Positions 1 through 12,670 of a stretch of DNA of 64,000 nucleotides are shown one piece after another. The notes below the pieces were generated by a model. That model made no database searches. It saw only the letters and a list, made by a program, of their open reading frames with translations, and was not told the origin of the DNA. The stretch comes from Meiothermus sp. (lineage in GTDB: Bacteria > Deinococcota > Deinococci > Deinococcales > Thermaceae): positions 1,094,041-1,158,040 of the forward strand of contig NZ_BPIK01000001.1 of the NCBI RefSeq assembly GCF_026004075.1, given 5' to 3'. The first letter of the stretch is position 1. Each line of letters opens with the position of its first letter. Position numbers and translations under genes: made by a program.

Positions 1-1393
1 CGTAGTCGAGCAGATCCTGGCGGGATTCGAACAGGGGCAGCTTCAGGCCCTTGCGCTCCTTACGCCCCAGGATGCGCTCGGCCTCGGCTTGCAGGTAGGC
101 CACGTTCATATCGTCCTGCCACTCCCGGGCTAGCTCGAGCAGCTCGTAGGCCAGGCCCTGGGTGAGATCGCCCTGCTCGAACGACTGCAGTAGCTCACGC
201 CAGCGCAGCCTGTCCCAGGTGCGCACCACGGTAATGGGTGCTCCCCCTCGAGTGTGCAGGGCTACCGCCAGGGCGTTACGTCCCCCATCCTTGGCCGCTT
301 TTTCGGCGTCTCGAGCCCGCTGCAAAGACTGGGAGAGCGGCTCGCGGTAGTGCACCACCGCTATCCCTGCCGAGAGGGTGCCGCGCACCCGGTGCCGGAA
401 GTTTTCGGAGAGGTCTTGCGCGCAGGCAACGGCCTGGTTCACCGGCAAAAAGGCCAGCACATCGTCGCCGCCGGAGTAGACCATAAAGCCGTGGTGCTCC
501 CGAACGATCCTCTGGGCTTCGCGGGCGAAGTCGTCGAGTGTGTTGGAAAGCGCGCGGTGGGCTTCGGGGTTATCCTGCCGGCTAATCAGCTCGCCCATGC
601 GGTCGCCGTCGGCCACCAGGATGGCGAAGTAGGGCTGGGGTTCTGTGATGTGATCGTCGTCCTCGCCCCAGCGATCTTCGGGCTGGGCTTTGGGGTTTTG
701 GGCCCGGCGGGCCATGGTGCGGGTGTCCACCACTGTCTGGTACATGCCCGCGCCATAGCAGCGCTTGAGCAGCGAGATGGCGTCGAGGTGCTCGGTGGGC
801 TTGATGCGCAGGGGGCGGTGGGCGCCGTCGGGCAGGCGCAGGGTGGCCTCGCCCCACATGCGGGGGTCTATCACCGCTGCGCGGGAAGGGTCGAGGGGCG
901 ACTTGGGTATGCCCTCGTCGTTTTGCTGGGTGGGGGCAAACTCGCGCAGGGCCTTGCGTCCGGCCAGCAGACGCTCCACGCCCTGCCGGGCCTGGGGGTA
1001 GTTGTTTTCCAGCGGAACCCAGGCCGCGTAGAACTCGAGGAAACTTTCAAGCTGAAGCTGCGCCCTGCCCTGGTCAATTTGCTTCTGGTATTGCTCTGGG
1101 AGGCCGTCCATGGCTTCTTGCCAGAGGTACTTCAGCTTTTCCTGAGCGGCTTTGCGGGCCCCCTCGACCAACTGCTGGGGGTCGCCGGTCGCCTCGGCCA
1201 GAATTTTGTTGGCCCCATCGGCTTCCTGGTCGGATGGGAAGATGAGCAGGGCGTTCTGGTCGGCCAGATAGCGGGCCACCACCCGGCTCAGTTCCTGCAA
1301 AATCTGCGAACCGGCGTACAGGTCGGCGGTGCGCCGGGCCGCGACGATGAAGTCCTGTACGGGGCCGATGGAGATGGAGAGCAGGTAGGTCAC
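1..1393 (-). CDS. cmr2: Cas10/Cmr2, type III-B palm subunit (partial, runs off left edge)
   Basis: Large subunit of a Cmr RNA-guided RNA-targeting complex; in this family the GGDD palm makes cyclic oligoadenylates when target RNA is bound. Only about the first 464 residues are inside the window. Visible are GPVQDFIVAARRTADL near residue 10, DGDRMGE near residue 262 and SGGDD near residue 305. The protein starts directly with the first palm-like domain, so the N-terminal HD nuclease domain of many Cas10 proteins is missing. The GTG start is chosen because AGGAGGT lies six bases upstream and the start overlaps the cmr1 stop (GTGA), implying translational coupling. The rest of the Cmr genes probably lie to the left. 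The family call is firm; the activity is inferred from the intact motif. Confidence 0.93.
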   Translation of the reverse strand, partial: MTYLLSISIGPVQDFIVAARRTADLYAGSQILQELSRVVARYLADQNALLIFPSDQEADGANKILAEATGDPQQLVEGARKAAQEKLKYLWQEAMDGLPEQYQKQIDQGRAQLQLESFLEFYAAWVPLENNYPQARQGVERLLAGRKALREFAPTQQNDEGIPKSPLDPSRAAVIDPRMWGEATLRLPDGAHRPLRIKPTEHLDAISLLKRCYGAGMYQTVVDTRTMARRAQNPKAQPEDRWGEDDDHITEPQPYFAILVADGDRMGELISRQDNPEAHRALSNTLDDFAREAQRIVREHHGFMVYSGGDDVLAFLPVNQAVACAQDLSENFRHRVRGTLSAGIAVVHYREPLSQSLQRARDAEKAAKDGGRNALAVALHTRGGAPITVVRTWDRLRWRELLQSFEQGDLTQGLAYELLELAREWQDDMNVAYLQAEAERILGRKERKGLKLPLFESRQDLLDY

Positions 1394-2550
1394 AGGCGTA
1401 CCTCCTCAGTGAAGCCCTCCTTTTGGGCAGCCCGCAAAACAGTTTCTATCAAGTCCTTCCCACCTAGCGCCCGTACCACACGATCGTCGGTGGGCCAGGA
1501 AAGATCGTAGGTCTGGCCTTTCACACTGACCCCCTGGGGTTCGGGCGCGGAAAGCACCAGCACCATCGCCCGCACCGAGCCATCAGCGAAGGCGACCGGC
1601 TTGAGGAGGACGGGTGAGGCCATGCGGCTTCCATCGGCAGGGGTGATTTCCCCTGCGAAGGCGCCGGTGAACTTCTGGTAGATAATGGGCAAGCCCATAT
1701 AAGGCTTGGCCAAGCTGACTTTTTGGCCTGGAGTGAGAGCTTTTAACTTGGCGTGATCTTCCCACATGGCCCCGCCCATCGCGCTGTACTCGGGATACTT
1801 TCCGGTGTAGTGCCCCTTGCGGAAGCGGGCCCAAAAAATGCTCAGGTCTTTCCAGGCCCTTACTCCGTCTTTGTAGGGCTTGGAGAAGGTAGCCCTCGCC
1901 CCAGATAGACACGAGTAGTACCCGTTGGATTGAAGCCCCGCGAACCACCCCTTTAGCTCAGAGAGGTCTTTGGGGTGCCATCCGGTTTGGGATGAAACGA
2001 CTTGCAACGCCCCTAACCCCCGCCGAGTCCGGGCCCCCACCCCGCCAAAAGCCAGCCAGGCTCGGACGGCTGTTTTTACCTCAGCCTCTTCCTCGAGCGT
2101 GAGGGAGTTCGAGAGCCGTAGCTCGAGGCTAAACGAGACCCCGACGAGCCCCGAGGCTTCGGAATCGTTTTTGTTCCTCAAAAAGGGATAGACGAAAAAG
2201 CGCTCATAAGGCTTTACCCTTTCACCCAGGGACGAAGGCTGGAGAGTGTTTTCGTAACCCTGCTCACTGACTGTCAGGGCCACCTGCCCTTGTTTCTTCG
2301 CGCTCCCCCAGATGCGCTCCTCTGCTTCAAACAGCTCCTTGGCGGTGGCATACTGCGCCCCCGCCGTAGCCCGCCACCAGAAACGCAGGTGGCCGCGCAC
2401 GCTGGCTGCCCGCACCGGGTGCTCAGGGTCTACCTGACGCGGTGTGGCGCTGCCGCCAAACATGGGGGTGATGGTGCGCAGCCGGAGCGTCCAGGTTTCC
2501 AGGGCCGGCGCCTTGAGCGGCGGGGGTGGAATCGGAACCGTCCTGGGCAT
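1390..2550 (-). CDS. cmr1: Cmr1, type III-B RAMP protein
   Basis: Predicted 386-residue RAMP-superfamily subunit of the Cmr complex, which caps the 3' end of the crRNA and takes part in target RNA binding. The N-terminal run TITPMFGG followed by RGHLRFWWRA (about residues 25-60) is the classic Cmr1 signature, and GGVGARTRRGLGAL is the glycine-rich RAMP loop. ATG at 2550 is preferred over an in-frame upstream start because it sits two bases after the cas7c stop (TAGccATG) and leaves Cmr1 its normal N terminus. It follows type I-C genes and overlaps cmr2 by four bases, so both systems appear to share one transcript. Confidence 0.92.
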   Translation of the reverse strand: MPRTVPIPPPPLKAPALETWTLRLRTITPMFGGSATPRQVDPEHPVRAASVRGHLRFWWRATAGAQYATAKELFEAEERIWGSAKKQGQVALTVSEQGYENTLQPSSLGERVKPYERFFVYPFLRNKNDSEASGLVGVSFSLELRLSNSLTLEEEAEVKTAVRAWLAFGGVGARTRRGLGALQVVSSQTGWHPKDLSELKGWFAGLQSNGYYSCLSGARATFSKPYKDGVRAWKDLSIFWARFRKGHYTGKYPEYSAMGGAMWEDHAKLKALTPGQKVSLAKPYMGLPIIYQKFTGAFAGEITPADGSRMASPVLLKPVAFADGSVRAMVLVLSAPEPQGVSVKGQTYDLSWPTDDRVVRALGGKDLIETVLRAAQKEGFTEEVRL

Positions 2551-2552
2551 GG

Positions 2553-3530
2553 CTAGGCTCCCATCCAGGCATCCCAACTGGCCTCGTCCCACTCGGAAAG
2601 CTCGAGCATCCGCACCCCTTTGGGCAGTTGGGCGGGGTCGGCGGTAATCCGGTAATCGGAGAAGCTGCGCGGGGGCCTGCTCTCGTCCAACCGCTCCACC
2701 GAGACCACCTGCCCCAGCTCGAGCAGCCGGTGCGCAGGCGCACAGCCCAGCCGGGCCTGGCGCCGGTTCTGCTCGTCGTTATTGGGGTCGCCGTTGCCCA
2801 CGTGCTTGAACAGGTACAGGCGGCGGGTCGCCATGTGGCCCTTGCTGGCGCTGCGGTCGTGCTCGAACATGTTCATGAGGGCTTCCACCAGCAGCTTCAG
2901 GTCGGCCTCGCTAAAGCCGGTTTGCTCGGCCAGGTGGGCGCTGATGAAGCCTTTAGCCATGTACAGCCCATAGGCCACCTGGCTTTTGCGCCCCATGGTG
3001 CGCAGCTTGTCCTCGGGCTGCTCGGCCTCCCAGCGCAGGTAATCTTCCAGGGTTTTGGCGTTTTTTACGTCCTCGGCCACCGCCCCACGGGTAATGCTGA
3101 ACTCCGCCGGAAAGATGGGGTCGAGGCTCCGGGCGAAGGTGATCTGCACCGGCCCCCGCACCTGGCCGGCGTTGGCCCCGGTGCTCATCACCGCGCCAAA
3201 GGTGCGCACGTCGAAGAACTGCTCGCACATCCAGCGCCGCGCGGCCTCTACTTTGTCTTTGGTCTTGCTTCCGGTAAACCCGCCTTCGGTTTTTATGTGA
3301 GCCTCGAAGATGGGCCGGTTCAGGTTGGTGCCGTGCTGCACGAAGATGCTGGCCCCCGCCACCTGGGCGTAGTTACGGAGGCGCCGCTTCAGGGCCACGT
3401 CGCTCACCAGGCCGTGGCCGTCCTCGGGGTCGATGCGCGGGGCGTTGCCGCTGTCGGGGTCGCCGTTGGGGTTGCCGTCCTTGACGTCGAAAAACAGCAG
3501 GAACTCGTAGCGGTTCTGGATAGGGTTCAT
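2553..3530 (-). CDS. cas7: Cas7c (Csd2), type I-C Cascade backbone
   Basis: Predicted 325-residue Cas7 of type I-C, the repeated subunit that coats the crRNA spacer in Cascade. The opening [21 protein letters not shown] is the hallmark of Csd2/Cas7c proteins, and the C-terminal half carries the usual GYGLYM-like and [11 protein letters not shown]-type stretches (here [11 protein letters not shown]). The length is typical. The ATG overlaps the cas8c stop (ATGA), and AAAGGAGA lies just upstream. It is the last type I-C gene before the switch to cmr1. No truncation or missing region is seen. Confidence 0.95.
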
Positions 3531-3916
3531 GTGCTCTCCTTTTCAGAATCAGATTTCTTGCGGCTGGCGGCCATCTGCTGGTAGTAGCCCAGGGCAAAAA
3601 GGCTCTGCTCTTCCAGGCTCAGGGTGCGCGGCAGGTTTTTACCCAGGGCTTTCCAGACCTCGGCGAGCTGGGTGTTGAACCAGTAGGCCAGGCCGGGTGC
3701 GTCTTTAGCCATCTTGGCCAGGTGGTGCTGCGAGAGCCGGGTCAGCCGGCCCAGCACCAGCGAGGGGGTGCTGGAAGCGGCCCCGTAGTAGCGCTGGATC
3801 ACCCCGGCGTTGATCTCGGACTCGCTGGCGGCCTCCTGAATCTGGGCCAGGATGCACATCAAGCGGCCACAGTGGTAGGCCGGGCTGGGGTGGCTTAGGT
3901 CGAGTTCTGCACTCAT
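3527..3916 (-). CDS. cas11c: Cas11c small subunit, internal translation start within cas8c
   Basis: In type I-C systems the small subunit Cas11c is known to be made by internal initiation inside cas8c. Here the in-frame ATG at 3916 (protein [19 protein letters not shown]..., 129 residues) is preceded by AAAGGAGGT with six bases between, a nearly perfect ribosome binding site in the middle of a coding region and better than most gene starts in this window. The product would be an all-helical protein that lines the Cascade belly. The site and spacing are seen; use of the start is inferred from known type I-C biology. Confidence 0.82.
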
Positions 3917-5374
3917 CCGATAACCTCCTTTGCGGTTGTGGTAGGCCTTCAAAAGCCCCATGCGGGCGTAGATGCGCCCAAGGGCAGCAGCGTCGGGTTT
4001 CTGAGCCTTCAAGGCTTCGGTAAAAGCCCCGGTCATCACCTCGGCGGTGTGGGTCTCCATGATTTTGGCGACCGCTGCGTAGGGGATGGGCAGGCGGGGG
4101 TTGAGGGCGGCCCGCCAGAGGGGGGTCTGGAGCTGTTTGATGGGTTTGAGGTAGTCGTCGAAGTTTTGCTCGGGGGTTTTGGGCCGCTGGAGACTGAGGA
4201 AAAGCCGGTTGAGGCCGGGGGGGCTGGCAAGGCTCCCTCCGTCGCGCCGCACGATGGCGAGGTCGGAAAACCAGGCCGCTACTGCATGAATGAAGTCCTC
4301 GAGCTGCCCCATCTGCCAGTCGCGCAGCATCACCCGGCCCGAGGCCGGGCTCATGGCGGCGGAAAAGAAGCGGGCGCTCTGCAGAACGGGCGGGGCCTGG
4401 CCGGTTCGGAGGGCCTGTAAAACCCGACGGGCGCGCTCGAGGGCCTGTAGCTCCTGGGCCTCGTCTGCTGCAGGCGCGAAGAGGTCTTTGAAGAAGTCGT
4501 CTTCTTTTGGAATTTCCCGATCGTACCAGACCACCACCTTCATCTCGCCCAGGATCTCGGCTTTCTCCAGCAGGGCATCCAGCCCGGCCCGGTAGGCATT
4601 GGCGGCCTGCTCCTCCACCGCGGCGTTTTCCCCCTGCGAGAGGCCATAGGACTCAAAAGCCTCCTTGTCGTAGGTGACCAGGGCGTGCCCAAAGGCGCTC
4701 CCACCCAGCTTAGTCACCTTGGGGTGGGTGGAGGCGGGGGTCACCAGCGCACCGCTGGCGAACGAGGGCATGCGCCCTTCTGAGCCCGACTTGGGGAAAG
4801 CCTGGGTTCTGAACTGCCGCCACCAGTCGTGCCAGTCGGGGAAGTCCAGCACGCACCGGCCCTGAAGCCAAAAGGAGACTTTATCGGTGGGTTTGAGCTT
4901 TTCGGCCCCTCTTTTCTGGGCCTGGGCCTCGAGCTTCTGCAAAATTGTCTGCATCTGCTCCGGGTCGGACAGGGCCTGGGCAATGGGTTTTAGGAGCGGT
5001 ACGTCGTTGGCGGCAAGCTGAATCAGCAGACGGAAGGTGGCCTGTTTTTGCAGGTTCCTGGCGTGCTCATCGGGCTTCCTGACCTGGCCGTTAGCGTCCC
5101 GCTCGGCCAGGCCAAACACCACCGCGCAGGTATCGGCCAGGAAGTGAGCGGCCTGCTCTACCGAATGCCCCTGGCCCCGCAGGTAGCCGGGAAGGCTAAT
5201 CATATCGGGCTGGGAAAGGTCGGGCGCGGTTCTGGCCTGGTTTTCCAGCGGAATCAGCTCGGTGAAGGCCCCCTGCGGGCTTACCCCCACCAGCCAGCGG
5301 ATTTCTTTGGTGGTAAAGCCCGGCTCGGCCAGCAACCCTTTTTGCTGGGTGTACGAGACCAACTGCGAAAGCAT
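3527..5374 (-). CDS. cas8c: Cas8c (Csd1), type I-C large subunit
   Basis: Predicted 615-residue large subunit of type I-C Cascade, which recognises the PAM and helps open the target DNA before Cas3 is recruited. The N terminus [15 protein letters not shown], the middle block [18 protein letters not shown] and the C-terminal [10 protein letters not shown] are typical of Csd1/Cas8c. The ATG at 5374 overlaps the cas5c stop (TGATG); a GTG one codon earlier is possible. The last 129 codons can also be read separately as Cas11c from an internal start at 3916. The gene looks complete. Confidence 0.94.
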
Positions 5375-6117
5375 CACCCACCCCCTTTGCGAACCTGTGG
5401 GCTTTCGTAGGGGGGCACCTCGAGCACCCCCTGCACCACCTCGGCCTCGAACAGGCTGATGCTCGGTTTCTCGCCGCGGTCGGTACGCAGCGGGCGGCCT
5501 GGGCGCGAGAGGTCGAAGACGTCGTAAAGCATCCAGCCGATTTTTTCGTTGTAGGGCACCGGGGCGGCCCCTTCATCCTCCACCAGCCGGAAGTAGCCGG
5601 TAAACTCGCGGCAGCCCAGGTAGGGCTGGTAGATGCACTGGCCGGCTCGAGCCCGCCGGAGAAAACTCTGCTCGATTTTTTGCCGCAAAGCGGGGTCTTC
5701 GCGGTAGAGCACGGCCTGGGCGGTCAGGCGGTAGCGCACGTTTTTGAGGGCCATGGTCTGGCGCTGGGTGCGGCCCTTGGCACCACCGCTGGTCTCATCC
5801 CCCGAGGCGTCGGCGTACAGGGGCTCAAAGCGGCTGGGGTCTTTCATCCAGGCCTGGATGTTGCGCACGCTGGCCTTCTCCTTGACCTCGTTGCGCATCA
5901 GGCTGATGTAGCGCACCGGGCTCAGCACCTCGATGCGGCGCACCTGCCAGTACATCAGGGGCGTTTTGTGCTGGGGGTCGAAGTCGAGGTAGATGGCATC
6001 GAAGATACCACGCGCCGCGCTGGGGGTGATGATGGGGTAGCTGAAGCGCTCCACCTTGAACTCGGGCCGGGTGAAACAGGCCAGCTCTCCCCAGACTTCT
6101 AACTGAAAACTTCGCAT
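5374..6117 (-). CDS. cas5c: Cas5c (Cas5d), type I-C crRNA-processing endoribonuclease
   Basis: Predicted 247-residue Cas5c. In type I-C this protein replaces Cas6: it cuts the repeat RNA at the base of the stem-loop and stays on the 5' handle. The start [24 protein letters not shown] and the block [17 protein letters not shown] are highly typical, as is [13 protein letters not shown] in the C-terminal part. ATG 6117 is chosen because AAAGGAGGT lies five bases upstream; a much longer open frame upstream is only a shadow of cas3. It starts 11 bases after the cas3 stop and overlaps cas8c. Confidence 0.95.
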
Positions 6118-6128
6118 CCAACCTCCTT

Positions 6129-9100
6129 TCAGACCACCAGCCCCGCGGCCCCTCCCTCCTGGGGTGTAAAGCCCAGCCGGGCGTCGTAGAGCGCGGGGTC
6201 GGCAGAGAGAAACCAGTCCGGGGCCTCGCCCCGCCCATAGCGCAGGAAGACCGTCTCCAGGAAGGGCGGGGGGCCATCTTGGGGCAGGAAGTAGGGCACG
6301 GTGTAGGGCCGGGCCCGGTGAATCCAGGCCGCGGAAATGCCCTGGTCGCGGGCCTCCTGCATCAGGGCCAGGGCTTCGTCGTTGTAGGGCACCACCACGT
6401 TTACCGCCGCCGACTCGATGATTCGGTAGCGCCGGGCCAGCTCGGCGTAGTTCTGGGTCTGAATCAAGGCCTCGATCTCGGGGTTGCTCACCTGCTGGAG
6501 CGCGTAGAGGCTCTGGTAGTAGCGGCGGAAGGTGGCGGGCTCGAGCGTGAGCGGCCCCTCGGCCTGCAAGGCGCGGGTAAGGGCGGCGGCCCGGCCGTAG
6601 GTCCGGTCGGGGTAGGCTTCCTCCTCGGGCAGGAAGACCACCAGCCGGCCCTGCGGGCGCAGGCCGTGCCGGTTGATGCGCCCGGCGGTCTGGGCGATGG
6701 CCTCGAGCGGCCCCAGGGCGCGATAGCCCACCGGGAAGTCCAGCTCCACCCCGGCTTCCACCACCTGGGTGGCTACCAGGCGGCAGGGCTGGCCCTGCTC
6801 GAGGCGGCGCTGTACCTCCTCGAGCACCCCCCGCCGGTGGGCCGGGCACAGGGCGGTGGACAGGTGGTAGAGCCCCTCGAGGTCGCGCGCCTGGGCCTCG
6901 TGGAACAGGGCGTAGGCCTGGCGCTTGAGGTTGAGCACGGCCAGCACCTGCGGCTCGGCCTCCAGCAGGGTAGCCAGGTGGGGCCAGGGGGTGGGGTTTT
7001 TCAGCCACCACTCGAGTTCTACCCGCTGGCTCTGGGCAAAAAGCTGTTCGGGTTCCGGCAGCATCTCCACCGGCTGCCAGCCCTGGGGCTCACCGCGCCG
7101 GATCTGCTCGTGCAGGGTGTCGAAGGCGGGCTGGGTAGCGGTGGAAAACACCACCACCGCCCCGTACTTCTCGCTGGCCAGGTGGGCCAGGGTTTTGAGG
7201 GTGGGCAGAGCCAGGTGGGTGGGCAGGGTCTGCACCTCGTCGAAAAGCAGCACGCTACCCGCCAGGTTGTGCAGTTTGCGGCAGGCCCCAGGGCGGTTGG
7301 CGTGCAGGCTTTCCAGAAGCTGCACGTGGGTGGTAAGGACGATGGGGGCCTCCCAGTTTTCGCTCAGGAGGCGGCGTTCGCGCTCCTGCAAGTCCTGCTC
7401 GTCGGAGAGTTCTCTGGAGAGGGGCCGGTAGGCCAGGCTGTGGTCTTCCAGGATGTAATGGGGCCCGAAGTCCTGGAACAGCTCGCGGTAGACTTTGGCG
7501 GTCTGGTCGAGGATGGAAAGATAGGGCAGCACCACCACAATCCGGCGTATGCGGGGGTCGCGCACGGCCCGCCGCAGGGCGAAGCGCAGCATGGCCAGGG
7601 TTTTGCCCAGGCCGGTGGGGGCGGTGAGGGTGAAGACCGAGGCGGCCTGTTCTGCTGCGCTTGCTGCGGCCTCGGCCACCAGCCTGCGCAGCTCGCGCGT
7701 TTTCTGGGGGATGTGGCCTGCCTGACCGAGCCGGGCCAGGTGGGCCTCGAGGCGCTCCAGGGCTTCCCTGGCCCGCAATTCCGGGGGTGCAGGACGGGCT
7801 TCAGGGCCTTTGATGTGGGCCTCGGTGTCCAGAAAATCGGCGTCCACCAGGGCCGAGAAGAGCATGCGGGTATCCAGCATGGCGGCCGCGCTGGCCGGCG
7901 GGGTGATGAGGGTACGGCTGGGCGGGGGCAGCTCGAGGCCGTCCTTCTGCAGGCGGGCTTTGAGCACCTCGAGGTCGGGCTCGCTCAGCCGCAAATCGGG
8001 GGGGAAGCCCTTTCCGTCCTCGCGTAGCTTCATCTCCTTCAGGCTTTCCTTAGCCCCGCTCTGCAACCCGATGTGGTGGCCCTGTACGGCCAGGGCCACC
8101 GCGGGCTGGCGGTACTCAAACAAGGCCAGGTGGGCCCCCGCCGACCAGTGGTCGAGGCCCTTTTCCCTGCCCTCGAGCCGGCGCTGGAACAGGTCGCCGT
8201 ACTTGCCCAGGTCGTGCAGGCGGCCCGCCAGCCGGGCGTTTTCTTCCTCGCCAAAGGGCCGGGCCTTGGCCGCCGCCCGTTCGGCCACCTGGTGCAGGTG
8301 TTCCCGCAGGGGCTGCCAGCGGGCGGGGTTGGGGTGGGTGTGGGCCCAGTAGGTTCTGGAAACCAGGCCGGGCTGCCCGTACTGCTCGAGCACCGCCCGC
8401 GCCTCGGCCAGCCAGGCCCGCCGCAGGCTTTCTGGCTCCAGCACCTCCACCCTGGGCCCCCAGCTCTGAATCCAGGGTAGCAGCTCGAGGGGGAATCCTT
8501 CGGTATCGGTGCCAACGGTAATTTGAACGAGAGTGCTACCACCCTCGAGCTGCTCAAGGATCTGCAGGTTGGGGTAACCCCCCTCCCGGATGCGCTCGCT
8601 GGCCTCCGGGTTGAAGCGCAGCCGCACCTGCATGGGCGGTTCGCTGCGCACGATGCCCCAGGCGTTGGAGAGGTACTGGCTGGGGTCGAAGTCGTCGGGA
8701 ATGGTGTAGGTTTCGTCCAGCAGGCGCGGACGCTGGATGCGCTCGAGCTTGTAGGTCTTGAGGTTCTCGAGGTAGTGCAGGCCCCGGCCATACAGCCGGT
8801 CTTTACCGATCACGTAAACCGCCATATTGGCCCGGGACACCTCGATGAAGTAGGTCTCGAGTTCAACCCGGATAACCCGCGCCTGGGGAAGACGGTACTC
8901 GAAGGCCACCACCTGCTGGTTGAGCCAGCCCTGGGTGAGGGTCTCGAGGTTGGCCCCGCTCAGGCTGGGGGGGCGCTGGTTCAGGGCCTCGGTGCTGCGC
9001 AGGGCGATGCTGCGCAGGGGCTCCGGCAGGTGTTTGGATAGTTTTCGCAAGGCTTCCTGGTAGGCTTTGTTGCTACCCGGCGCATGGTGCGCCAGCATAC

Positions 9101-9365
9101 GCAAAGCCGCATGGGCGACCACGGTTTCGGTAAGGCTCAGCCGCTCCCGCACCTCGACCCAGTAGAGGCCCCGCAGCCGGTCGTGCCGGAACTCGAGCCC
9201 CAGCCGCTCGGCCAGGGCCTCGGCCTCGAGCAGGTAATCGAAGATGGCCCGTTCCCCAAGGCCCAGCTCTTTGCGCAGCTCGTGGGGCCGCCAGGCTTTC
9301 TGCTCGAGCAGCTCCAGCAGCCGGAGCAGCCTGTGGGCTTTGTTTTGATGGTACGTTGCTTCCAT
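6129..9365 (-). CDS. cas3: WYL-domain regulator fused to Cas3 HD nuclease-helicase
   Basis: One open frame of 1078 residues holds a complete regulator and a complete Cas3. Residues 1-75 form a helix-turn-helix (LRKELGLGERAIFDYLLEA). Residues about 155-250 are a WYL domain, and about 270-330 match the C-terminal extension of WYL regulators (LLPWIQSWGPRVEVLEPESLR). The HD nuclease follows: YWAH at 339-342, HDLGK at 384-388, H406, H412 and H430-431. The helicase has Walker A APTGLGKT (582-589), DEVQ (709-712), STAT (741-744) and QTAGRINRHG (892-901). No stop, frameshift scar or internal start with a ribosome site is seen at the junction near residue 333. A TAG lies in frame nine codons before the ATG. 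The fusion probably represses or senses at its own promoter, and cuts DNA when recruited by Cascade. Confidence 0.92.
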   Translation of the reverse strand: MEATYHQNKAHRLLRLLELLEQKAWRPHELRKELGLGERAIFDYLLEAEALAERLGLEFRHDRLRGLYWVEVRERLSLTETVVAHAALRMLAHHAPGSNKAYQEALRKLSKHLPEPLRSIALRSTEALNQRPPSLSGANLETLTQGWLNQQVVAFEYRLPQARVIRVELETYFIEVSRANMAVYVIGKDRLYGRGLHYLENLKTYKLERIQRPRLLDETYTIPDDFDPSQYLSNAWGIVRSEPPMQVRLRFNPEASERIREGGYPNLQILEQLEGGSTLVQITVGTDTEGFPLELLPWIQSWGPRVEVLEPESLRRAWLAEARAVLEQYGQPGLVSRTYWAHTHPNPARWQPLREHLHQVAERAAAKARPFGEEENARLAGRLHDLGKYGDLFQRRLEGREKGLDHWSAGAHLALFEYRQPAVALAVQGHHIGLQSGAKESLKEMKLREDGKGFPPDLRLSEPDLEVLKARLQKDGLELPPPSRTLITPPASAAAMLDTRMLFSALVDADFLDTEAHIKGPEARPAPPELRAREALERLEAHLARLGQAGHIPQKTRELRRLVAEAAASAAEQAASVFTLTAPTGLGKTLAMLRFALRRAVRDPRIRRIVVVLPYLSILDQTAKVYRELFQDFGPHYILEDHSLAYRPLSRELSDEQDLQERERRLLSENWEAPIVLTTHVQLLESLHANRPGACRKLHNLAGSVLLFDEVQTLPTHLALPTLKTLAHLASEKYGAVVVFSTATQPAFDTLHEQIRRGEPQGWQPVEMLPEPEQLFAQSQRVELEWWLKNPTPWPHLATLLEAEPQVLAVLNLKRQAYALFHEAQARDLEGLYHLSTALCPAHRRGVLEEVQRRLEQGQPCRLVATQVVEAGVELDFPVGYRALGPLEAIAQTAGRINRHGLRPQGRLVVFLPEEEAYPDRTYGRAAALTRALQAEGPLTLEPATFRRYYQSLYALQQVSNPEIEALIQTQNYAELARRYRIIESAAVNVVVPYNDEALALMQEARDQGISAAWIHRARPYTVPYFLPQDGPPPFLETVFLRYGRGEAPDWFLSADPALYDARLGFTPQEGGAAGLVV

Positions 9366-9449
9366 ATCAGCGCCAGCAGCAAGGCTTGACTAGTAGCGTA
9401 AACCTTGCCGTCCAGCTCTCGTCCAGATGGATTTTTGTGCGCTCATTAC

Positions 9450-9478
9450 TTGATAAAATATGAGTGTATTCATATCAA
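9450..9478 (-). promoter_or_regulatory. Candidate cas operon promoter with embedded palindromes
   Basis: On the minus strand TTGATA (9478-9473) and TATCAA (9455-9450) lie 17 bases apart, giving a plausible sigma-70 promoter about 85 bases upstream of wyl-cas3. The two boxes are inverted copies of each other, so the element also reads as a promoter on the plus strand. Inside it sits ATATGA-N6-TCATAT (9458-9475), a good operator for a dimeric HTH protein, and the WYL part of the first gene is the obvious candidate. Boxes and symmetry are seen; regulation is inferred. Confidence 0.55.
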
Positions 9479-9530
9479 ATAGCAAATAAAACCATCGAGC
9501 CCCTGTTGGCTGCCATCGCACCTGCTGATG

Positions 9531-11123
9531 TTAGATAACGTTCCACTGCTGCCGGTATTCTTCGATCCAGTTGCTGTAATAACCCGGCATGAACTCGAGC
9601 ATCTGCCCCTGGTGGTCGAGGGGAGGCTCGGTTGGGAAGACCCACTCGCTTTCGGGGTCGAGGGTGTACATCCTCCCAGTGCTGCGCACGCTGTCCTTCC
9701 AGCCCAGGGCCATCCGCAGGGAATTGACCACTTCCCACAAGGCTTTACGGGGGTTCTTGCCGGGGGTGGCAATCTGATCCAACAAAACCTCGAGGCTGGC
9801 CGAACCCCCCTTTATCAACAAAAACACCAGCAACTCTCCGGCCTTGCTAACGGCTGGAAGTAGCACAGGCCGGCTATTGACCCGAACCTGCAAACGCCCA
9901 TAGGGGTTCACCTCTACCCGGTAGCTCGCGCGCAAACTGGGTTCCGTACCCTGGATAGCCGATGCCAGCAGGGGAAAACAGCTCAGCTCTTCTCTGAACC
10001 AGAGGTTGTTGGTTTCCACAGAGGCCAGCCGGGCTTTGGCCTGGGCCAGGTCGCCCTTACGCCGCAGCCACTCGGCCTCGAGGATGCCCAGTACAATTTT
10101 ATCCCGATCCCGCAGGGGAATGGTGCGAAGGTAGGGCAGGTTCTGCTCGAGGTACTCGAGGTGGCCCAGCATTAGGTAGGCCGCAGCGATGTCCAGCTCG
10201 AGCCAGCGCACCTCGGGGTTGATCCGGTGAGCCTGCAACAGCTTAGCCAGCCCCTCCTCAACCTGGCCCATAAGACGCAAGGTGTGACCCCAGCCCCACA
10301 GGGCCAGTTGGGTGTCGTCGGTATCGCCCTTGGCCTTGTAGGCCTCCTGGTAGGCTTGCAAGGCCCGCTGCAATTCGGCGAACATGCGCCGCACAATCCC
10401 CAGCCCCAGCAAAGCCCGGCTGCGGAAGCCGCGGGCCGCTTTTTTCTGGCTTATACGGAGCGCCTCTAAAAAATGTCGCTCGGCCTTGCCTGGCTCATTT
10501 TTGAGCAAAAGGTAGCCGATGTTGCTGTGCGTCCAGGCCAGATAATAAGGGTCGTTTTCAAGATAGATAAGGGCTTCGGCCCAGATTGCATGGGCTTGGG
10601 TATGCTGACCGCTGGCGTAAAAGTGCCAGCCATAATCCAGCAGCATGCGTCCCAGGGCGTTGCCCTGCAGATGTGCGCGGGCCTGCTCAAAGCATTTTTG
10701 CCATCCGGCCTGCTTAAGCCGGCCCATGGCCATACCCAGGCAGCGGTAGTAAAGGCCCTTATCGGGCACAGAAGCCTCGCAGAGGCTTTGAAGCACCTCC
10801 AAGGCCTGTTGGTTCTGGTTGAACTGAAGAAGGGCCCAGGCCTGATAAAGGTGCAGGCCATCGGTAGAGGTATTGGACTCGAACCAGGCCAGAACATCCT
10901 TTGGCTTTCGGGCTCGAGCCAGGGTTTGCAGGTAGATGCGCTGAAAGGTCAGCTCTTGCTGTAAGGGTTCCGGCACCCCCTCCAGCAGGTGCAAAAACCT
11001 TTCGGTTTGATAATAGGTTTGGTGCTGCTCGCTGGCATTTTGCAGCAGTTGTAGGGCCAGGTCGGCCCGGCCCTGCTCGACCAGAGCCTCTAAGTTTACC
11101 CTCAACAGCTCCAGATCCCTCAC
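9531..11123 (-). CDS. TPR-repeat protein with C-terminal winged-helix domain (putative regulator)
   Basis: Predicted 530-residue protein. About residues 90-370 are helical repeats of TPR type (for example YYLAWTHSNIGYLLLKNEPGKAERHFLEAL and ARGFRSRALLGLGIVRRMF, read as consecutive units). Residues about 404-500 (YGRLQVRVNSRPVLLPAVSKAGELLVFLL...VVNSLRMALG) look like the OmpR/SARP-type winged helix, here at the C terminus instead of the usual N terminus. Such TPR plus winged-helix proteins are common in Meiothermus, and their ligands are unknown. The GTG start at 11123 has no clear ribosome site. The gene lies between the CRISPR leader and wyl-cas3 on the same strand as cas, so it may feed transcription into the operon. 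A role in CRISPR control is only a guess from position. Confidence 0.75.
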   Translation of the reverse strand: MRDLELLRVNLEALVEQGRADLALQLLQNASEQHQTYYQTERFLHLLEGVPEPLQQELTFQRIYLQTLARARKPKDVLAWFESNTSTDGLHLYQAWALLQFNQNQQALEVLQSLCEASVPDKGLYYRCLGMAMGRLKQAGWQKCFEQARAHLQGNALGRMLLDYGWHFYASGQHTQAHAIWAEALIYLENDPYYLAWTHSNIGYLLLKNEPGKAERHFLEALRISQKKAARGFRSRALLGLGIVRRMFAELQRALQAYQEAYKAKGDTDDTQLALWGWGHTLRLMGQVEEGLAKLLQAHRINPEVRWLELDIAAAYLMLGHLEYLEQNLPYLRTIPLRDRDKIVLGILEAEWLRRKGDLAQAKARLASVETNNLWFREELSCFPLLASAIQGTEPSLRASYRVEVNPYGRLQVRVNSRPVLLPAVSKAGELLVFLLIKGGSASLEVLLDQIATPGKNPRKALWEVVNSLRMALGWKDSVRSTGRMYTLDPESEWVFPTEPPLDHQGQMLEFMPGYYSNWIEEYRQQWNVI

Positions 11124-11566: not shown

Positions 11567-12670
11567 GTTGCACTCGGGCGAAAGCTCGAGTGAGGATTGA
11601 AACAATGGCCGGTGGCGCCATATTCCTCTAGCATGGTTGCACTCGGGCGAAAGCTCGAGTGAGGATTGAAACGCGCCTAGGCCTACACATTGCTAGGTCA
11701 GGGTTGCACTCGGGCGAAAGCTCGAGTGAGGATTGAAACCTAGCAAGTGCCTATCGGTTCACTTGCATATGCTCGTTGCACTCGGGCGAAAGCTCGAGTG
11801 AGGATTGAAACCTGACCTGGTGCGCTTCAGTCGCTTCGCCGTTCGTTGCACTCGGGCGAAAGCTCGAGTGAGGATTGAAACACTCGGTCACCCTGCGCTC
11901 GGCTCCACCCGTTGTTGCACTCGGGCGAAAGCTCGAGTGAGGATTGAAACGTAGGCCGGACCAGCCCGTTCAGGCTTGCCCCTCGGTTGCACTCGGGCGA
12001 AAGCTCGAGTGAGGATTGAAACTTCCGGCCCAGCCCTTCCGGGATCAGCCCCTGGATAGTTGCACTCGGGCGAAAGCTCGAGTGAGGATTGAAACCCTAC
12101 CTGCCGTGCACCTTGGTCACACGTGGGCGTTGCACTCGGGCGAAAGCTCGAGTGAGGATTGAAACCAGATCCGCTTGCGCATCCCGACTCAGCACATCTG
12201 GTTGCACTCGGGCGAAAGCTCGAGTGAGGATTGAAACACCTCACTGATCAGCTCCAGTATGCTGTGGGCGGTTGCACTCGGGCGAAAGCTCGAGTGAGGA
12301 TTGAAACGCCTCGGCCTCAGCCCCCACGGTCGAGGCATAGCCAGTTGCACTCGGGCGAAAGCTCGAGTGAGGATTGAAACCCAGATACCTACTTGCCTAG
12401 TTGGCGCCTCTCGAAGGTTGCACTCGGGCGAAAGCTCGAGTGAGGATTGAAACATTCACAATCTGGCAGGGTAGGTGTAGCCAGACACCGTTGCACTCGG
12501 GCGAAAGCTCGAGTGAGGATTGAAACTCCAGACAGCCCGGTCCACTTCACCAGCCGGAGCCGGTTGCACTCGGGCGAAAGCTCGAGTGAGGATTGAAACC
12601 AGATGCTTCATCTCCTTTTACCCGCAAAGCAGGGTTGCACTCGGGCGAAAGCTCGAGTGAGGATCGAAAC
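11567..12670 (+). CRISPR. CRISPR array, 16 repeats of 37 bp and 15 spacers
   Basis: Repeats begin GTTGCACTCGGGCGAAAG and end CGAGTGAGGATTGAAAC. Each forms a 9-bp stem (CACTCGGGC with GCTCGAGTG, one G-T pair) capped by a GAAA tetraloop, leaving an 11-base 3' segment AGGATTGAAAC that would become the 5' handle after Cas5c cleavage. Repeat starts are 11567, 11636, 11703, 11775, 11845, 11914, 11986, 12059, 12129, 12201, 12271, 12344, 12417, 12490, 12563 and 12634. Spacers are 30-36 bases, and all differ. The last repeat has one change (GGATCGAAAC), which marks the old, leader-distal end, so the leader is on the left. The array ends exactly where the lysS stop codon begins. Confidence 0.99.

Follow-up and report, generated by a model that had tools for sequence, protein, structure and literature searches.

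The Meiothermus sp. genome segment described here (a window of 64,000 nucleotides) carries a cas3 gene whose product is, on balance, probably a dual-function protein in which an N-terminal DNA-binding co-regulator of cas transcription is joined to an ordinary type I-C nuclease-helicase. The likeliest role of the N-terminal half is that of a functional co-regulator of the cas operons, modular with respect to the nuclease.

The fusion itself is already in print. Makarova et al. (2014; PMC4012209) reported that the Cas3 of certain type I systems carries a fused WYL domain, PADLOC models the full-length WYL-Cas3c protein (PDLC01766, 1009 positions), and the Allomeiothermus silvanus fusion is present in RefSeq (WP_013159711), labelled simply as Cas3. 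It also recurs in two phyla, and the view that such a fusion is undescribed is not supported. A literature search did not recover a paper studying a WYL-Cas3 protein. What seems to be undescribed is a conserved tpr-wyl-cas3 cassette in type I-C and I-E loci, a composite promoter before the fusion and the free I-E wyl gene, covariation of the promoter repeat letters with the TPR recognition helix and not with the WYL protein, and four WCX-only relatives of Cas3 under purifying selection.

Domains of the fusion protein and its operon

The WYL-Cas3 gene is a single uninterrupted open reading frame of 1078 codons (positions 6129-9365, minus strand), with the frame and coordinates originally predicted. 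It is the first gene of a type I-C operon, and profiles identify cas5c (5374-6117), cas8c (csd1; 3527-5377) and cas7c (csd2; 2553-3530) on the same strand. A type III-B module opens with cmr1 (1390-2592, minus strand), which profiles also recognize and which is annotated likewise in A. silvanus; this module follows the I-C genes directly, in the same orientation, and may be transcribed from the I-C promoter as well. The module (1390-2592; L006:9656-15434) includes a putative CARF-type protein (L006:9656-10789), and beyond it are cas4-, cas1- and cas2-like genes, as judged by reading frames, and a 62-copy array. Another CRISPR array with 16 repeats (GTTGCACTCGGGCGAAAGCTCGAGTGAGGATTGAAAC) occupies positions 11567-12670 on the plus strand.

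The regulator half begins with a winged helix-turn-helix (HTH) domain (residues 5-72; 9150-9353, minus strand, as for all domains below), recognized from the secondary structure of the model and from HTH_11 matches in 4 of 10 homologues. It continues with a helical linker resembling a three-helix bundle in the fold model (residues 78-148; 8922-9134), a module also present in DriD and PafBC, and with a WYL domain (residues 139-219; 8709-8951) supported by PF13280, by alignment to DriD and by invariance. On the fusion protein the PF13280 match (residues 139-214, E 0.002) falls slightly short of the curated cutoff, and the profile matches 8 of 10 homologues (best E 4.7e-9). A WCX domain (residues 243-326; 8388-8639; Pfam PF25583, E 2.3e-13) completes this half. 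After a junction (residues 327-345; 8331-8387) come the Cas3 HD nuclease domain (residues 346-520; 7806-8330; TIGR01596 E 3e-20; HD match at residues 355-435) and the SF2 helicase (residues 555-910; 6636-7703), which profiles detect and which has the motifs APTGLGKT (Walker A), DEVQ and QTAGRINR. Within the latter, the DEAD match covers residues 569-746 and the Cas3 C-terminal domain match residues 807-900, with the C-terminal region running on to residue 1078. The HD residues H384, D385, H430, H431 and D508 are invariant, and the HD and helicase motifs are intact and without variation, in eight aligned Thermaceae fusions.

PDLC01766 spans residues 7-1026 (profile positions 4-967 of 1009, E 8.6e-217), and the protein is 93% identical to that of Meiothermus taiwanensis, a close relative of the source genome. 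The structure model of the fusion is only fair (mean pLDDT 62) and so served for domain order only; in a Foldseek search it matched type I-C Cas3 with E 4e-24 and DriD with E 6e-12, and PafBC and BrxR ranked lower. Profiles and fold model bear out the predicted architecture of a whole HTH-WYL regulator (to about residue 333) followed by a whole HD-helicase Cas3.

Type I-C Cas3 proteins of known structure (PDB 8zns, 8g9u) have the HD and SF2 helicase domains in common with the fusion (profile E about 1e-132), but they begin at the start of the Thermaceae Cas3 half and lack the WYL part. Conversely, DriD of Caulobacter and PafBC of mycobacteria share the winged HTH, helical linker, WYL and WCX with the N-terminal half, but are free, ssDNA-activated factors of DNA-damage genes. 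The basic pair K206/R209 occupies the position of the ssDNA-binding RxxR pair of PafBC (R211/R214 in PafB) and is invariant across the eight aligned Thermaceae fusions, although it reads KxxR, with the first arginine of the PafB pair replaced by lysine. WCX is the dimerisation domain in both PafBC and DriD. BrxR/CapW and Sll7009 are winged HTH-WYL proteins encoded beside defence genes and, unlike the fusion, are not joined to an effector; BrxR binds inverted repeats, and Sll7009 represses a type I-D locus. The structural match of BrxR to the fusion is weaker (Foldseek E about 1e-5).

Purifying selection has acted on both sides of the junction: almost all pairs and domains give a dN/dS far short of 1 (values for single domains reach 0.7 where synonymous counts are tiny). 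In the fused genes, dN/dS is 0.05-0.41 for the HTH and 0-0.44 for WYL. The junction is the fastest-changing stretch: among the more distant Meiothermus members its identity is 37-58%, versus 65-87% for the WYL-half domains and 70-82% for Cas3. The frame is nonetheless no sequencing accident, since 16 Thermaceae genomes, source included, carry it without a stop. These genomes were assembled separately, and the nearest are 91-97% identical per half, which refutes an artefact of sequencing or assembly at the junction.

It is very improbable that the gene yields two separate proteins in practice, whether through an internal start codon or through cleavage of the linker by a protease. GTG codons with weak Shine-Dalgarno matches do recur 31-33 codons before the YWAH motif, but no internal start at the junction, and none with a good Shine-Dalgarno sequence, is conserved across the 16 genes, and a junction ATG occurs in only two of them.

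Origin, exchange and loss of the regulator half

A survey of Cas3 proteins for N-terminal WYL domains, as the original prediction proposed, found the full fusion in 16 of 50 Thermaceae genomes (Meiothermus, Calidithermus and Allomeiothermus, with named species of the first two among the carriers). PDLC01766 matches were found in 10 of 251 sampled Chloroflexota genomes, nine being intact full-length fusions and one having a broken 5′ part; these ten have the highest scores (1100-1700 bits). The fusions described by this profile share with ours full length, the HTH-WYL-WCX then HD-helicase order and location in I-C loci. Among plasmids, a single-piece fusion over more than 80% of the query is present only on A. 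silvanus pMESIL01, and no relatives of the WYL-HD part were found in viral contigs. Chloroflexota also have a second class of WYL-Cas3 fusions (1155-1162 amino acids; L182, L185, L188 and L189), and I-C cas5, cas8 and cas7 were not recognizable in the DNA around these four. A WCX-like extension of Cas3 in Thermus thermophilus HC11 proved to be a read-through of CRISPR repeats and was discarded as a remnant.

Separate, overlapping wyl and cas3 genes occur elsewhere in Deinococcota and in Chloroflexota, and Deinococcus radiophilus has the two as split genes. The fused WYL halves of Thermaceae form one clade (SH-aLRT 100) that adjoins the free WYL proteins of Thermaceae I-E loci. The best-scoring PDLC01766 members are those of Chloroflexota, and a single clade of all fusions is rejected for both the WYL half (AU p 2e-70) and the Cas3 half (AU p 2e-81) in trees that are quick and include some long branches. 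As judged from these sequences, the Thermaceae and Chloroflexota fusions are of independent origin, and converged from overlapping wyl-cas3 pairs. The fusion of the source genome would have arisen by loss of the stop codon between overlapping, co-transcribed genes.

Such an origin invites the explanation that fusion was neutral, the halves working just as the two proteins did and gaining nothing from being joined. The split, overlapping pairs in the same phylum and in Chloroflexota fit this explanation, as does the rapid change of the linker. However, the fusion is kept in 16 Thermaceae genomes and was gained independently in Chloroflexota, and WCX persists after loss of HTH-WYL, making neutrality distinctly unlikely.

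The two halves do not always share a history. In Calidithermus chliarophilus (G003), the WYL half is of the Calidithermus type, the attached Cas3 half belongs to another lineage, and cas5 and cas8 are foreign. This combination would be expected if the halves are separable modules, and implies that in Thermaceae the host retains the regulator end and can acquire a different effector operon by exchange at the junction.

Four shortened relatives (G006, G008, G011 and G015) encode WCX-Cas3 proteins of about 850 amino acids that lack HTH and WYL (L092:2917-5481, L093:4982-7552, L094:7080-9623 and L095:3654-6197), WCX being the sole piece of the regulator retained. Its dN/dS in these proteins (0.16-0.30) is somewhat greater than that of their HD and helicase domains and far below 1, so that WCX seems important to Cas3 itself, perhaps, by analogy with PafBC and DriD, as a dimerisation module. 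The I-C tpr gene is missing from all four genomes as well, whereas their I-E tpr-wyl pair is retained. In Chloroflexota, genome G277 likewise keeps an open WCX-Cas3 frame. The Chloroflexota WCX-Cas3 frame at L186:2156-4879 (minus strand) has its 5′ part broken off, with repeat-like DNA upstream. WCX is not essential, since the Cas3 of a genome from another genus of the same family (G023), 75% identical to that of the source, has neither HTH-WYL nor WCX.

These shortened proteins bear on the possibility that the N-terminal half acts on the enzyme, with WYL and WCX binding ssDNA or dimerising Cas3 to tune loading, unwinding or nuclease activity, and with the HTH as an extra grip on DNA. The constrained WCX of the four Meiothermus-group genomes, the open G277 frame and the dimerising role of WCX in PafBC and DriD all favor this possibility, and the WYL domain of Thermotoga elfii PIF1 is reported, as cited in PMC9122601, to couple ATPase activity to unwinding. 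On the other hand, the HTH is constrained in intact fusions, the related WYL proteins of I-E loci are unfused, the halves recombine apart, and the close relative G023 manages without any WYL or WCX. We regard action on the enzyme as possible but somewhat unlikely, and favor co-regulation of transcription.

The tpr-wyl-cas3 cassette and its promoter

A gene for a TPR protein of 530 amino acids with a probable C-terminal OmpR/SARP-like winged helix (PADLOC C3a198) lies at 9531-11123 on the minus strand. It precedes wyl-cas3 in most I-C loci, those with separate genes and those with the fusion alike, as well as in many I-E loci; in G007 and G018 it is elsewhere in the genome. Of 14 homologues, 5 match Trans_reg_C, the best of them with E 3e-4, and the model (pLDDT 91) has the order strand-strand-helix-strand-helix-helix-strand-strand. 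A Foldseek search with this model matched TPR folds alone, and neither profile searches nor the fold model revealed a BTAD domain. The protein would resemble SARP activators (OtcR, AfsR, EmbR) in its putative OmpR-like winged helix and, as the likely binder, in the 11-bp-period repeats near the -10 element, but the winged helix is C-terminal, after the TPRs, whereas SARP proteins have an N-terminal DNA-binding domain followed by BTAD. Sequence matches to EmbR and AfsR are weak (E 0.12 and 0.87).

On the second replicon of the same genome, a free WYL protein is encoded (L005:10026-11021) directly before I-E cas3 (L005:7326-10022). This free protein is 46-49% identical to the fused WYL, and its gene has the same promoter layout, with no adjacent tpr gene.

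The promoter of the fusion gene contains a direct repeat with an 11-bp period (TGGACG-N5-TGGACG; 9409-9425, minus strand) and, about 8 bp past the 3′ repeat, the -10-like sequence TACGCT (9395-9400, minus strand), which is conserved as TA..T in the alignment. The sites of SARP proteins are likewise 11-bp-period direct repeats about 8 bp before the -10 element (PMC4393881). TGGAYG-N5-TGGAYG at this distance from TA..T precedes 16 of 16 fusions, a few with one degenerate half-site, and is also found before most I-E wyl genes. It is absent before tpr genes and cas5 controls, save for one match at the G003 tpr gene that lies inside the coding region. The perfect repeat with a -10 TA occurs exactly twice in the source genome, and twice each in the near relatives G009 and G021, always before the fusion and the I-E wyl operons. 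Allowing one mismatch adds further, probably chance matches, with similar numbers for a reversed control in some genomes, and conclusions are therefore confined to perfect, promoter-placed sites.

The letters of the repeat identify its likely reader. In I-E promoters, TCGAYG is present in both repeats of G006, G013 and G019 (TCGACA/TCGACG in G013), and exactly these three genomes have glutamine in the TPR recognition helix, the others having lysine or arginine. This covariation involves at least two independent changes. G011, whose TPR protein has arginine, has TCGACG in one repeat only, and in G006 the I-C promoter of the shortened gene is shifted in the same way as the I-E promoter, as if the I-E regulator serves it. 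The covariation and the G006 shift make the TPR protein the likely binder of the direct repeat. That its letters go with the recognition helix of the TPR protein, and not with the WYL protein, spoke against taking the repeat primarily as the WYL operator. Thermus genomes with a free I-E WYL, mostly without a close TPR homologue, were also set against it; such a repeat was not seen in two inspected Thermus promoters.

An AT-rich imperfect palindrome (CTCATATTTTATCAA here; 9450-9464, minus strand) lies upstream of the direct repeat, at a centre distance of 32 bp, and is a candidate WYL site; with the direct repeat it makes up the composite promoter found before the fusion and before the free I-E wyl gene. 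Its symmetry is modest, with a complementarity of 0.48 at this centre compared with about 0.2-0.38 elsewhere. Since the best-defined operator tracks the TPR protein, it is from this weak palindrome that a WYL operator would have to be argued. The original prediction proposed 9440-9490 as the DNA on which to test binding by the N-terminal part; conserved, probably regulatory elements do lie nearby, but the strongest of them (9409-9425) most likely belongs to the TPR protein.

Two further loci resemble parts of the cassette. In G016, a lone WCX-like remnant (L116:2823-3038), perhaps a decayed I-E wyl gene, has a near-perfect direct-repeat promoter just upstream (G016:C2:952777). In G012, which was inspected out of sample, an I-E-type tpr gene lies beside a polysaccharide chain-length-like gene rather than wyl (L151:600-900), with TCGACG-N5-TTGATG after tpr and between the two, and the TPR family may also act on genes unrelated to CRISPR.

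A proposed circuit for type I-C and I-E operons

We propose that residues 1-333 make up an entire regulator akin to DriD, PafBC and BrxR that would still bind DNA and help to control cas transcription, and that the C-terminal 740 residues act as an ordinary type I-C nuclease-helicase. The SARP-like winged helix of the TPR protein would bind the direct repeat, which takes the place of a -35 element, and recruit RNA polymerase; roughly three helical turns further upstream, the WYL part would probably bind the AT-rich palindrome as a dimer. There it may modulate activation by the TPR protein in response to a ligand, plausibly ssDNA or another nucleic-acid fragment. As this promoter layout recurs at the free WYL gene of the I-E locus, the I-C and I-E operons are probably cross-regulated.

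Several observations argue for this co-regulator role. The HTH and WYL domains of fused genes are under purifying selection, and the tpr-wyl-cas3 order is conserved, with split, overlapping genes in other Deinococcota and free wyl genes before I-E cas3. The composite promoter stands before every fusion and most I-E wyl genes, and perfect sites with the -10 TA are confined to two CRISPR operons in the source and two near relatives. The G003 half on an unrelated Cas3 and operon, and the structural matches to DriD, PafBC and BrxR, point the same way. Against the co-regulator role, four relatives dispense with HTH-WYL, yet each keeps a free I-E WYL, and the RxxR of PafBC is KxxR here. Domains, selection, cassette, promoter elements, covariation and half swapping are read from sequence comparison; that the WYL half binds DNA, as activator or as repressor, with what ligand and as a dimer, and that Cas3 is active, is inferred. 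Control of its own operon and nucleotide sensing by the WYL half, both raised in the original prediction, are putative as well. A feedback switch, in which the WYL half would bind ssDNA released by its own nuclease-helicase half and, together with the TPR activator at the composite promoter common to both, raise the I-C and I-E operons, is an unlikely extension of this circuit.

The means by which type I CRISPR operons detect infection and tune their own expression are largely open. Here a single polypeptide unites regulator and effector, its likely partner activator has been identified along with the promoter letters, and relatives provide natural controls in the form of split genes, module-swapped fusions, WCX-only forms and loss of the whole regulator. 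A control circuit common to two CRISPR systems looks new and easy to test, and feedback of Cas3 products on cas expression becomes directly testable in non-pathogenic thermophiles.
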